In this document: positions 36,515 to 43,627 of the stretch, in pieces | Position numbering within the stretch: the first letter of the stretch is position 1 | Layout: each line of letters opens with the position of its first letter | Source of the DNA: Anaerolineae bacterium | GTDB lineage: Bacteria; Chloroflexota; Anaerolineae; Aggregatilineales; Phototrophicaceae | Assembly (NCBI GenBank): GCA_012270545.1 | Contig: JAAXID010000159.1 | Location: forward strand, 1-43,627 | Direction: 5' to 3' | Length of the DNA stretch: 43,627 bases | Made by a program: the position numbers and the translations under genes | The notes under the pieces: model-generated | The model's database searches: none | The model's input: only the letters and a program-made list of their open reading frames with translations | Told to the model about the DNA's origin: nothing

Positions 36515-39500
36515 TCAGAGCTCCTGCGCCCGTATCGCCCCCGAGCCGGTCGCTTCTATCTTCCGGCTGATATATGACATGATGTAGCTGAATACAAAGA
36601 AGAGGATCGCCACGTACAAGAACGTCTCCTGGCGCTTCTGCAGGAATTCCGCCTGCGCCACGACGCGCGAAGCGACGCCCAAGATATCCGCCAGGCCGAC
36701 GATGAATACCAGCGATGTATCCTTGAAAAGTGAGATGAATTGCCCCACCAGCGCCGGGATCACCGCCCGCAGGGCCTGCGGCAGCAAGATGTACAGCGTC
36801 GTCTGCCAGTTCGACAAACCGATCGCCTGCGCCGCTTCGGTCTGGCCGCGATCGATTGACTGCAAGCCGCCGCGCACATTCTCCGCCAGGTAGGCGGCGC
36901 TAAACAAGGTGAAGGCGACCCAAGCGCGCACTGCCTGGTCGATCGCCGCCAAATTCGGATCCACCAGCGGGACAAGCAGCGACGCCAGAAACAGTATCGT
37001 AATCAAGGGCACGCCGCGCACCAGCTCGATGTAGAGAATACAGGTGTATTTGACTACCGCGAGATTGCTGCGCCGCCCCAGCGCCAGCGCCAGACCGATG
37101 GGGAACGACGCAGCGATGCCAAGCACCGTCAGCTGCATAGTGATCATCAGACCACCCCACAGCCGCATGTCAGACAGTGGCAGCAGGTCATCGGCCGCTG
37201 TCTGCAAGGCGCCCTGCGCACCCAATCCGGCGACGATGCTAGGGATGATCCACAGGGCGGCAAGCCAGGCCACTGCCACTACGGCTGCACCTTGCAGAGA
37301 GTATCGCTGAAAGAGCCATCCCCTGCGCGCGCCCAGCTCCATGCGCTTGTCCGTCTGAGCCTCTTCCCCTCGTTTGAATGCGACCACACCGCCGGCGAGC
37401 CAAAGGACAAAATAGATTGTTGACCAGCGATCAACCCCCGTGAAACTTTGCATCCACAAGAATGTCAACAGGAGTAATCCAATGCAAATTCGATTCGAGG
37501 TCCACTTGCTGGCGCCGCTGAAGAACATCCAGGCGATCCACAGCAGGAACGCGACGCTCGCCAGCATCGCCGCCGTGTTGTCAGCAGTCGCGGACACAAT
37601 ATTCGTATCGAGCAGCACGAAGGGGAAAGCGATGCAGCCGATCAAAAAGCCATAACGCTTGATCGCCATATCCAGCGCGCCATTTAGCCGAAGCCCGCCG
37701 ATGCCGGCCAAAACCCCGACGGCGGCAAGCGCGAGCCAAAGCAGTATTGAAATTGAAGGATCTGTATACCAGCCGTCCCAAACCAGGTTGATCAAAAAGG
37801 CTTGCGCAATCTGCAAAAAGAAGCCGCCAACTAACAAGGCATAACCGAGCGTCCCCCTGAAGTTGAGACCGACGAAATACATCAAGAGCAGCCAGAGCAG
37901 ACCGCCGACCATACTGCCGAGCGTCGCGCCAGACAGTCCGCCGATGCCCGATGCCAAGCCGAACATGATTAAGGGATAGGCGCCCCAGCCATAAATCAGA
38001 AAGCGATTGGTTGAGCCTTCGGCATCCTCGCCCCGATTGCTTTGGTTGAGCCAGGCTTCGCCCCGACGCGCCGCCAATACAGCGCCGAAGGCAGCGGCGA
38101 TTTGCAGGATCACCCCAACAGCGCCTCCTTCGCCCTCAAGCAAAGCGAAGTAGACAAGCAGGATGAGCAGGGGCGTCAGCGACCAGGCCAAAACCGGGAC
38201 CCGACTGCTGTTGTTATTGAAGACGGAGTTCTCACCGAGCAGGTGGGCCGCCGCTCGCCCCAGGCTGAATCCCCAGGCGACCGTAATCAGAAAGGGAATC
38301 AGCAGCGCCTCAACCTGCGCAAAAAACGGTGGAATGAAGTGAATAAGGTAGGTCTGCAGATCGCGCAGGCCGCGAAACTGATTGTCGATCAATACGGCAA
38401 CGGGTATCGGCCTGCCATCGCGCAGCGGGCGGCTTTCTGTGACCAGCAGCTCGTTGTCTGTCAAGCGCGCGAACTGCGATTCAGTGGCGCTGAGCGTGCG
38501 CTCAACGATTGGATAGATGCCCGACGCCGCCAAGATGGTGCTGCCTTCTTCGCCCTCAGCCGCGTTTTTACTCAGGATATACCAGCCATCGCGCGGTATG
38601 TCGTATGAGACGCTGTCGCCCGCCCCGCTCAAGACGCCCGCCGCCAGCGCTTCCCGCGACTGCGCATCAAGGATCGCCACCGCCATTGGCGTCTGACCGA
38701 GCTCATACAAGTCCAGCACGGATTGCGGCGTCAGCAAGCGCACAAACATATCGCGCAGGAAGGCGACTTCGCGCGGCAGAGGCCTGATCAGTTCTTCTTC
38801 CTCATCGGACTGGTCTGCCTCCCCAATGAGGTCTTCCGACAGTTGTACGACGAGCAGCTCGCCCAGGTCTTCCAGCCGTTCGCTGGCGAGTACCACATTG
38901 GTCAGCTGTTCGACCGCATCCCACAGTTCCGCCGGTATCGCATCGTTGATCGACAGGTTTTTGACCGCGTCCTCTACGATTACCACCTTTTCCAGTATGG
39001 CGGCTTCGCGCGGGTCCAGGCTCTTGGCCGCGCGTTCCAGCCGGCCCAGCCAAAAGCGCAGTTCGCCGACTTCGGCGCCGGCCGTGGTTAGGATACCGCC
39101 AATGCGCGCGACATAATCTTTGGTCGAAGCCAACATGTCGTTCGTGCGGGTGAAGGTTCGGATATTCAGGCGCGTGCGTTCTTCGAGCGATTCGGTCAAT
39201 TCGCCACTGGCCATTTGGTCGAAGGTCTCGCCGGTCTTGGCGCGCCGTTCAATTCGATTGAGCGCGGCGTTCCCCAAGGCGTTCGAGCCGCGGTCGGAAA
39301 AGCCCGAGAGCCGGCTCAATGTTTCGATATCGCTGACTTCCTCAAGCGCCAGACTCACCGATACCCGCTCACCCGCCCCCGCGATAAATGCCAGCTCAGG
39401 CTGCGGCGTCAGAGCGGTGGCGCGATCAACAATGTCCACATTGCCGGCCGTGAAGTATGAGCGCGGCTGCTCAATGGTCGCTTCAATAATCGGCGGCAGC

Positions 39501-39904
39501 GTGCCGACGATTACCACTGCGCCAAGCGATACGCTCGCCAGAATGCGGAGCGAACGGCGCGCCCAGGCGGCAAGGCTCATGCCCGTCAACAGGGCGGCCA
39601 GCAGCACTGCAAGCGCGAGGCGCCACTCGAAGATTGGCTCATATGACAGCATCATGAAGAGGCGCTGATTGTTGATGATGGCGAACCAGTTTGCCGAGCG
39701 GATCGCCCAGTCGAAGAAGCTGATGAGCAGGCCCAGGATAAGCAGCGAAGTAACTATTGTAATGAGAATATCTACGGGCGAGCTGAGGAGGTTCTGCCGC
39801 ATCCAGCCGGCTAAACCAACCTCAAGCTTCGGTGGCGGCCGCGCCGGCTCATCGTCATAGCTGATGATCGACCTGCCCGCGTCCGCGTTCAGCTGTTCCG
39901 ACAT
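36515..39904 (-). CDS. aapM: Amino-acid ABC transporter permease (AapM-like) with very large insertion
   Basis: A 1129-residue permease, about three times the usual 380-400. The N-terminus resembles AapM (a membrane helix near 45-70, then DWAIRSANWF). The C-terminal binding-protein-dependent permease domain (about 905-1120) is complete, with the EAA loop EAAQAIGLSNWQTTLYILLPQALR. Between them lie two more helices (about 93-140), a soluble, partly helical region of about 375 residues (145-520), and a run of further membrane helices (about 525-840). The open frame is uninterrupted and the composition matches its neighbours, so it is a real fusion or expansion. The extra domain may sense substrate or bind a partner (inference). 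GAGGTG 8 nt upstream of the ATG overlaps the aapQ stop. Confidence 0.9.
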   Translation of the reverse strand: MSEQLNADAGRSIISYDDEPARPPPKLEVGLAGWMRQNLLSSPVDILITIVTSLLILGLLISFFDWAIRSANWFAIINNQRLFMMLSYEPIFEWRLALAVLLAALLTGMSLAAWARRSLRILASVSLGAVVIVGTLPPIIEATIEQPRSYFTAGNVDIVDRATALTPQPELAFIAGAGERVSVSLALEEVSDIETLSRLSGFSDRGSNALGNAALNRIERRAKTGETFDQMASGELTESLEERTRLNIRTFTRTNDMLASTKDYVARIGGILTTAGAEVGELRFWLGRLERAAKSLDPREAAILEKVVIVEDAVKNLSINDAIPAELWDAVEQLTNVVLASERLEDLGELLVVQLSEDLIGEADQSDEEEELIRPLPREVAFLRDMFVRLLTPQSVLDLYELGQTPMAVAILDAQSREALAAGVLSGAGDSVSYDIPRDGWYILSKNAAEGEEGSTILAASGIYPIVERTLSATESQFARLTDNELLVTESRPLRDGRPIPVAVLIDNQFRGLRDLQTYLIHFIPPFFAQVEALLIPFLITVAWGFSLGRAAAHLLGENSVFNNNSSRVPVLAWSLTPLLILLVYFALLEGEGGAVGVILQIAAAFGAVLAARRGEAWLNQSNRGEDAEGSTNRFLIYGWGAYPLIMFGLASGIGGLSGATLGSMVGGLLWLLLMYFVGLNFRGTLGYALLVGGFFLQIAQAFLINLVWDGWYTDPSISILLWLALAAVGVLAGIGGLRLNGALDMAIKRYGFLIGCIAFPFVLLDTNIVSATADNTAAMLASVAFLLWIAWMFFSGASKWTSNRICIGLLLLTFLWMQSFTGVDRWSTIYFVLWLAGGVVAFKRGEEAQTDKRMELGARRGWLFQRYSLQGAAVVAVAWLAALWIIPSIVAGLGAQGALQTAADDLLPLSDMRLWGGLMITMQLTVLGIAASFPIGLALALGRRSNLAVVKYTCILYIELVRGVPLITILFLASLLVPLVDPNLAAIDQAVRAWVAFTLFSAAYLAENVRGGLQSIDRGQTEAAQAIGLSNWQTTLYILLPQALRAVIPALVGQFISLFKDTSLVFIVGLADILGVASRVVAQAEFLQKRQETFLYVAILFFVFSYIMSYISRKIEATGSGAIRAQEL

Positions 39905-42671: not shown

Positions 42672-42772
42672 ACTGAACCACCCTCCTTCGGAAACGTAAA
42701 TTAACCTTTACTTCTCATACTGAATGCCCGCGGCTACATCACGCATCAGTATTTGTTGCATGCTCAGTCTAC

Positions 42773-42778
42773 AGTATA
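42773..42778 (-). promoter_or_regulatory. -10 box for aapJ
   Basis: TATACT on the minus strand, 101 nt upstream of the aapJ ATG. The -35 match is poor. It lies 34 bp past the selenoprotein-gene terminator. Confidence 0.4.
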
Positions 42779-42811
42779 AAGCAAGGTCTGCCAAGTCGTT
42801 GACGGGCTTGC

Positions 42812-42850
42812 CAAAATAAAAACCACCCGTCAAATACGCTTAACGGGCGG
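42812..42850 (-). terminator. Rho-independent terminator after the selenoprotein gene
   Basis: CCACCCGT (42823-42830) pairs with ACGGGCGG (42843-42850), with one mismatch. It is followed on the minus strand by TTTTTATTTT. It lies 50 bp past the stop codon at 42900. Confidence 0.8.
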
Positions 42851-42899
42851 CTTTGTATGGTCGGTGCAATTGTGAATCAGACTCGCGACCACGGTCTCG

Positions 42900-43178
42900 T
42901 TACTTGCTGGCCAACTCGAAGTCGGCGGGGCGGACCGTCTCCAGCACCTTCATGATGCCAGCCCGCACTTCGCCGGGTTCCGCATGACGTCCCACCTCAT
43001 GCTTTGAGAAAACCAGCTCGCCATTCACCGAGACGTCAAAGACGCCGCCGGTGCCCGGAATCAGTTTCCAACTGCTGATAAAATATTCGATTTCACGTTC
43101 GTTCAAGATTTCGTCCGTCAAACTGACGGCATTAGGTTGGTGTCCTCAAGTAGCGCAATACTTGACGACGATGTCCAT
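42900..43178 (-). CDS. SelW/Rdx-family selenoprotein with in-frame UGA (Sec11)
   Basis: From ATG 43178 the frame reads MDIVVKYCAT, TGA (43148-43146), GHQPNAVSLTDEILNEREIEY and on to the stop at 42900, 92 residues in all. The TGA falls exactly on the second position of the Rdx redox motif CxxC/U, giving CATU. The C-terminal LIPGTGGVFDVSVNGELVFS is the diagnostic SelW/SelT core, and GRHAEPGEVRAGI is the usual end. A stem-loop suitable as bSECIS lies at 43115-43129. A GAGG 5 nt upstream of the ATG, a promoter at 43237-43265 and a terminator frame the gene. Reading from the internal TTG at 43121 would give a 73-residue protein without the active site. The role is thioredoxin-like thiol redox chemistry. 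Needs SelA, SelB, SelD and tRNA-Sec encoded elsewhere. Confidence 0.85.
43115..43129 (-). promoter_or_regulatory. Candidate bacterial SECIS stem-loop
   Basis: In the mRNA, CCGUCA and UGACGG form a perfect 6-bp stem with loop GUU. The stem begins 16 nt after the UGA and the loop 22 nt after it. The first loop base is G, as expected of bSECIS elements recognised by SelB. Confidence 0.7.
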
Positions 43179-43236
43179 TCCACCCTCTTGCATGGCAAAC
43201 GCTCCCCTTCAGCGACTCATTTATATCGATGCCCCT

Positions 43237-43265
43237 AGCATAGCGCAAAGGTCAGGCGATTGCAA
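43237..43265 (-). promoter_or_regulatory. Sigma70-type promoter of the selenoprotein gene
   Basis: On the minus strand TTGCAA (43265-43260) and TATGCT (43242-43237) have a 17-nt spacer. Transcription would start near 43230, about 50 nt before the ATG at 43178. Confidence 0.65.
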
Positions 43266-43279
43266 ATCCAACTTTGCGA

Positions 43280-43627
43280 TCAAACGACGATATTCACCTT
43301 CGGGTCCACCCCGTTGCGCCCGGGGATGAAGATGGCGCGCTTTGGCGCGGCTCCCCGCAAGAAGCGCTGTGCAGCGCCGCTCGCCAATGCCAGCTCCCGC
43401 GCCCGTTCTTGATCAATATCCACCGCTACCGTAATAGTCTCGCGCGGCTTGCCATTGATCATCACCACCAGATCGACCATATCTTCCCGCGCCAGCTCGG
43501 CGTCATATTCGGGCCATGGCTGCGTATGCACGCTGTACCCCCAGCCCAGGCGCGCCCACAACTCCTCAGCGATATGAGGCGCGAAGGGCGCCAGCAGACG
43601 AATCGCCTGATTCATCACCGCCTGCCA
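43280..43627 (-). CDS. leuS: Leucyl-tRNA synthetase, C-terminal part (cut by window edge)
   Basis: The frame is open from the window edge to the stop at 43280. It gives the last 115 residues or so of LeuRS: the end of the helical anticodon-binding domain (AIRLLAPFAPHIAEELWARLG, then QPWPEYD) and the small C-terminal domain (VVMINGKPRETITV, then PKRAIFIPGR and KVNIVV). These are characteristic of bacterial LeuRS. The catalytic part lies outside the window. Confidence 0.93.
   Translation of the reverse strand, partial: WQAVMNQAIRLLAPFAPHIAEELWARLGWGYSVHTQPWPEYDAELAREDMVDLVVMINGKPRETITVAVDIDQERARELALASGAAQRFLRGAAPKRAIFIPGRNGVDPKVNIVV

Follow-up and report, generated by a model that had tools for sequence, protein, structure and literature searches.

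A SelW-like gene in an Anaerolineae genome whose in-frame UGA is very probably read as selenocysteine

The window (the whole stretch of DNA that was analysed, 43,627 nucleotides, from an Anaerolineae bacterium) carries on its minus strand a gene of the Rdx family whose frame contains one TGA codon. Its neighbours are an aminoacyl-tRNA synthetase gene, probably leuS, of which the window contains the 3' part, and a gene whose product carries the solute-binding-protein domain PF00497. The features of the locus are listed below.

42900..43193, minus strand: selW-like (Rdx family) gene, very probably of a selenoprotein, ending in TAA; from PF10262, TIGR02174, the translation and conservation of the upstream ATG
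43146..43148, minus strand: TGA codon, very probably read as selenocysteine, second residue of CxxU; TGA in 134/143 and Cys in 9/143 Rdx loci
43115..43129, minus strand: apical SECIS hairpin with a 6-bp stem and loop GUU; from pairing, both-side changes and the loop G in 95 distinct rows
43202..43209, minus strand: Shine-Dalgarno-like AAGGGGAG; from the sequence, 8 nt before ATG 43193
42819..42854, minus strand: terminator-like hairpin with a T run; from a signal scan
43280..43627, minus strand: upstream aminoacyl-tRNA synthetase gene, 3' part, cut by the contig end; PF08264 (Anticodon_1), E=1.8e-16, stop TGA 43282-43280

Between ATG 43178 and TAA 42900 the frame contains exactly one internal stop, the TGA at 43146-43148. 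Counted from this ATG it is codon 11, in the context CAT-U, just as an initial sequence-only reading of the window had it. The same reading placed the start at ATG 43178; a second in-frame ATG, 15 nt upstream at 43193, is better conserved. ATG occupies the equivalent position in 67/77 order-level TGA loci, versus 36/77 for the codon equivalent to 43178, and the upstream ATG is seen in 96 of up to 134 TGA loci read. This makes ATG 43193 the most likely start, judging by conservation, and gives a product of 97 aa with selenocysteine at residue 16.

The gene had also been credited with a promoter, a Shine-Dalgarno and a terminator of its own, of which the last two have counterparts here. The sequence AAGGGGAG precedes ATG 43193, and purine-rich stretches occur at a similar position in many relatives (judged by eye, uncounted). 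A terminator-like site lies at 42854-42819, one of 2 in the scanned stretch against a shuffle mean of 0.6. In the scan of 42700-43450 the selW-like gene shows no promoter-like site; the single one detected is that of the downstream gene. Elsewhere in the window, at 36515-39904 (minus strand), lies an unusually long frame of 1129 aa with a C-terminal BPD_transp_1 domain as its sole match. It adjoins a solute-binding protein, another permease-like frame and an ABC ATPase.

The read-through product matches PF10262 (Rdx) with E=1.1e-14 and 54.7 bits in its 92-aa reading, the cut-off being 22.6, and TIGR02174 with 45.5 bits, the cut-off being 34.2. Its score of 70.6 bits with NF041051, the SelTWH_Campy equivalog, stays under the cut-off of 88. 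The CxxU motif reads C13-A-T-U16 in the 97-aa numbering, its second position being UGA-encoded, and the PGTGGVFDVSVNGEL core follows in frame after the TGA. The Rdx/SelW identity proposed from the letters is borne out by these matches. An AlphaFold2 model built with Cys at the UGA position (pLDDT 77, pTM 0.70) has a strand at residues 6-13 and then a helix at 19-29. When this model is searched with Foldseek, bacterial Rdx structures fill the top 21 rows (20-34% identity, TM by target 0.77-0.88), among them 2fa8, 3dex, 2obk, 2oka, 2p0g and 2ojl; mouse SelW, 2npb, is at row 23. The best solved structures by sequence are 3dex and 2fa8. The model thus predicts the thioredoxin-like fold of Rdx proteins and places CxxU past the first strand, as expected of Rdx/SelW proteins. 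The predicted fold is the same as in the solved structures, but the second motif residue is encoded here by UGA. The product most likely acts as a thiol/selenol oxidoreductase.

We read the motif codon in 143 Rdx loci (L001 and L020-L161): 82 matches in the order, 31 loci from named contigs and the 30 best-scoring loci of the class. Many of the 31 named-contig loci lie on the same contigs as the order genomes; 30 come from MAGs titled Chloroflexi, Chloroflexota or Anaerolineae and one from a Promineifilum sp. The codon is TGA in 134 loci, TGT in 7 and TGC in 2. An Rdx match is found in 79/154 genomes of the order, and among its 82 matches 77 contain one internal TGA and 5 none. The class sample has a match in 179/396 genomes; apart from nine, the matches listed contain one TGA each. 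Within the genus, SelA occurs in 34/34 genomes and UGA-form Rdx in 31/34, the Rdx match being absent from G098, G120 and G121.

A single in-frame stop in a standard-code frame is also what one would see in a dead gene, whether the TGA truly terminates translation (a pseudogene) or stands for a Cys codon read wrongly (a sequencing error). The same TGA recurs, however, in 134/143 loci, with Cys in the other nine and the frame intact on both sides, and therefore a read error and random stops at this place are excluded. Since the protein sequence after the TGA is conserved across relatives together with the TGA itself, we reject a dead or misread gene as extremely improbable.

Starting 16 nt past the TGA is the stem CCGTCA-GTT-TGACGG, with its arms at 43129-43124 and 43120-43115 and its loop at 43123-43121: the G-first triloop on a perfect stem of 6 bp, first noticed from the letters, is present as described. 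It fits the four bacterial SECIS constraints (loop/stem size, loop G, spacing, energy) quoted in the available part of PMC13188914. The apical loop has 3 nt and the upper stem 6 bp (limits 3-9 nt and 4-16 bp). The loop GUU obeys the rule that a G stands at loop position 1 or 2, with G or U as the usual next base. The UGA lies 22 nt from the apical loop (limits 16-37 nt), and the minimum free energy of the UGA plus 45 nt, small second stem included, is -8.9 kcal/mol (limit -7.5).

Folding of the single sequence is unremarkable: z is -0.85, with 38/200 shuffles folding as well, and -0.24 for a slightly longer piece. Among 20000 synonymous resamples, 1437 (about 7%) offer an equally perfect 6-bp hairpin with a G-first triloop within range; under looser hairpin rules the number is 2917. 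As far as sequence analysis goes, the significance of the hairpin rests on comparison with relatives and not on the window.

For this comparison, the stretch from UGA to +45 in the 134 TGA loci gives a gap-free alignment of 95 distinct rows, which are related and not independent. The stem of the sequence-only reading pairs 97.9% of the cells, versus 18.6-47.2% with a slid partner; 83 rows have 6/6 pairs and 12 have 5/6. Both-side changes occur at 4/6 pairs (C-G/U-A; C-G/U-A/G-C; G-C/A-U; U-A/C-G) and involve 30 cells, versus 3.3 in shuffles, 0/500 of which reach that number. Covariation was judged by five measures, and for two of them the excess over shuffles is only modest: double changes at 4 pairs versus 2.0 (reached by 14/500), and 8 further pair types versus 6.1 (reached by 38/500). 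RNAalifold recovers 5/6 stem pairs unaided. When the tree is built with the stem columns left out, the Fitch minimum of pair-state changes for the six pairs is 7, 9, 4, 13, 0 and 4, unpaired states included. The loop G is present in 95/95 rows and is followed by T in 75 of them and by G in 20. Among the Cys loci, the 8 distinct rows have 1-4 of 6 pairs and keep the loop G in 3; they are a weak control, being mostly distant paralogues. The compensatory changes and the four constraints together agree with the earlier proposal of a bacterial SECIS element at the published spacing.

Silent sites in the hairpin are, on codon counts, evidently constrained. The Ser codon of the loop is AGT in 70/70 cases, versus 42/356 Ser codons elsewhere in the same genes, and Val at codon 7 after the UGA is GTC in 82/82, versus 197/493 elsewhere. 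A hairpin conserved under such constraint again argues against a dead gene. The loop codon specifies Ser or Arg. The residues at codons 7 and 10 go together in the 95 rows: Val-Thr in 71, Val-Ala in 11 and Ala-Ala in 8, followed by the rarer pairs Ile-Met (3), Leu-Thr (1) and Thr-Val (1).

The hairpin also bears on a shorter 73-aa protein, started at the TTG after the UGA, as the real product and a possible choice of gene callers. The frame is indeed open from TTG 43121 to the TAA, but this TTG lies within the hairpin, and the codon varies among the 95 rows, with TTG in 70, CTG in 8 and a non-Leu codon in 17. Moreover, such a product is without the first strand and the CxxU motif, both of which are conserved; we reject it, giving it hardly any chance.

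A covariance model of the selW SECIS, searched against its own genome, finds the selW gene with E=1.2e-10 and four other matches with E of 0.5-7. At the match with E=0.5, the only place inspected, the frames listed include no clear selenoprotein gene.

The assembly (G000; 3,968,312 bases, 290 contigs, 91.31% complete, 5.81% contamination) contains the machinery that the sequence-only reading would have the genome possess. One tRNA-Sec exceeds the Rfam cut-off (C240:7271-7365, 70.7 bits, E=2.8e-14), and ARAGORN names it tRNA-SeC with anticodon tca. This cut-off is also exceeded in 5/14 control genomes; at E<=1e-10 the controls with a tRNA-Sec are down to two, Escherichia coli and Methanocaldococcus jannaschii. 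SelA is found on C285 (E=4.2e-136), SelB on C55 (E=1.1e-106, the sole one of 7 matches over the cut-off) and SelD on C10 (E=2.0e-113). These genes sit on other contigs of the MAG than the window, which counts against the selenocysteine reading, since MAGs may lack sequence or mix genomes.

That the frame runs on past the UGA could equally reflect its decoding as another amino acid, through a genome-wide code change or readthrough by a near-cognate tRNA. The neighbouring synthetase gene, however, stops at TGA 43282-43280, and therefore UGA is not reassigned everywhere. Replacements at the UGA codon are Cys only (9/9), tRNA-Sec and SelB are present in the assembly and the hairpin is of the SECIS type. 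On the Cys-only alternatives and the machinery we reject this other meaning of UGA, which is very improbable.

Across the order, the UGA form is linked to selenocysteine decoding: SelA (E<=1e-40) is found in 73/77 UGA-form genomes, 0/2 Cys-only genomes and 39/75 genomes without Rdx (Fisher p=3.5e-10 for UGA-form genomes versus all others, with no correction for relatedness). Neither of the two Cys-only genomes, G056 and G095 (G095 being a single contig), has SelA, SelD, a SelB over the cut-off or a tRNA-Sec at E<=1e-10. In G096, of the same genus as G095, we find SelA, SelB, SelD and tRNA-Sec together with one UGA form and one Cys form. Four UGA-form genomes without SelA at E<=1e-40 (G061, G144, G133 and G033) count against the selenocysteine reading. 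G061 and G144 have SelB and tRNA-Sec, and G133 (68% complete) has SelB, tRNA-Sec not being found. In G033 (81% complete), which likewise has no SelA at this threshold, neither a SelB over the cut-off nor a tRNA-Sec is found; missing sequence may be the simple answer.

Some single loci are worth recording. L150 (G033:C1:498050-498850) is a UGA-form SelW with a paired stem, despite the undetected machinery of its genome. At L158 (G065:C155) and L159 (G061:C174), selW shares its contig with tRNA-Sec, at a distance of about 4-5 kb. The Cys-form Rdx L115 (G056:C92:197500-198300) resembles its UGA-form relatives and has no stem; it may be a Sec-to-Cys conversion.

We consider it very likely that the gene is a working SelW-like (Rdx) gene, whose UGA is read as selenocysteine by means of SelB and the downstream hairpin. 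Translation would probably begin at ATG 43193, and the ribosome would reach the UGA at codon 16. SelB with Sec-tRNA-Sec would bind the hairpin that starts 16 nt past the UGA, with its 6-bp stem and GUU loop, and instead of terminating, translation would continue with selenocysteine inserted at the UGA. The 97-aa product would adopt the thioredoxin-like Rdx fold, with Cys-Ala-Thr-Sec after the first strand. While family, predicted fold, conserved UGA, paired hairpin and machinery genes come directly out of the computation, we infer the actual insertion of selenocysteine, the redox activity and the partners of the product.

A broader reading, which we hold to be reasonably probable, is that UGA-encoded SelW is old and widespread in the class. 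The paired residues of the first helix (codons 7/10) would then be forced by the 15-nt hairpin and not by protein contacts, and, where selenocysteine decoding is lost, the gene would be lost or a stemless Cys form would take its place. The coupled codons suggest an RNA structure driving amino-acid covariation, a trap for contact prediction based on coevolution.

SelW-like CxxU selenoproteins are, in the available text of the respective papers, the family with the most members in the Sargasso Sea data (PMC1088965) and first-ranked in GOS (PMC2398784). They also occur in sequenced genomes, and a 2006 survey counts for Chloroflexi, in its available part, 3 selenoproteins from as many families (PMC1794560), among which SelW may be. 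As far as these sources describe them, the proteins are alike to ours in family, in CxxU, in the SECIS just after the UGA and in the conserved loop G; the host differs, being here Chloroflexota MAGs and relatives, a comparison made by description only. In Epsilonproteobacteria, SelW genes were missed in annotation (PMC4607533), and the available text reports a similar 5/6-bp apical hairpin a few nt past the UGA with an invariant loop G and covariation. Our gene belongs, by contrast, to another phylum and lies outside the NF041051 equivalog. SelA and SelB are noted, in the portion available of one study, in most sponge-symbiont bins (PMC5649159).

Our searches of open-licence literature listed nothing on SelW selenoproteins of Chloroflexota, which is not proof of absence from print, nor did we meet there the wide conservation of UGA-SelW in the class or the paired residues at codons 7/10. 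Bacterial SelW selenoproteins, unannotated ones included, are already in print in what is available of PMC1088965 and PMC4607533: the gene is new and its kind known, in line with the initial view that the family is not new. What seems a broken gene is very probably a real gene of a known kind, common to many relatives. It adds a well-supported selenoprotein, and a SECIS alignment with compensatory changes, to a phylum with 3 counted in the available part of the 2006 survey (PMC1794560). Its main importance lies in correct annotation; no new kind of system is opened.

The SelD of the same assembly (L019:1483-2541, on C10) has a UGA of its own at codon 17, in CAGUASK, and is itself, by its sequence, a predicted selenoprotein. 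Gene calling with UGA as a stop would drop the active site of both the selW-like gene and SelD. In the family, SelD (E<=1e-40) is present in 71/98 genomes; 67 of these 71 matches contain one TGA, three are open and one does not cover the site. The motif is readable in 25/30 SelD loci, of which 23 have TGA and two are Cys forms. A permissive search finds a possible hairpin of at least 5 pairs, with a loop GTN starting 33 nt after the TGA, in 22/23 UGA-form SelD; L188 does not follow this rule, and the two Cys forms are without the hairpin. In the SelD of G000 the possible hairpin has a GUU loop, which starts 33 nt after the UGA.
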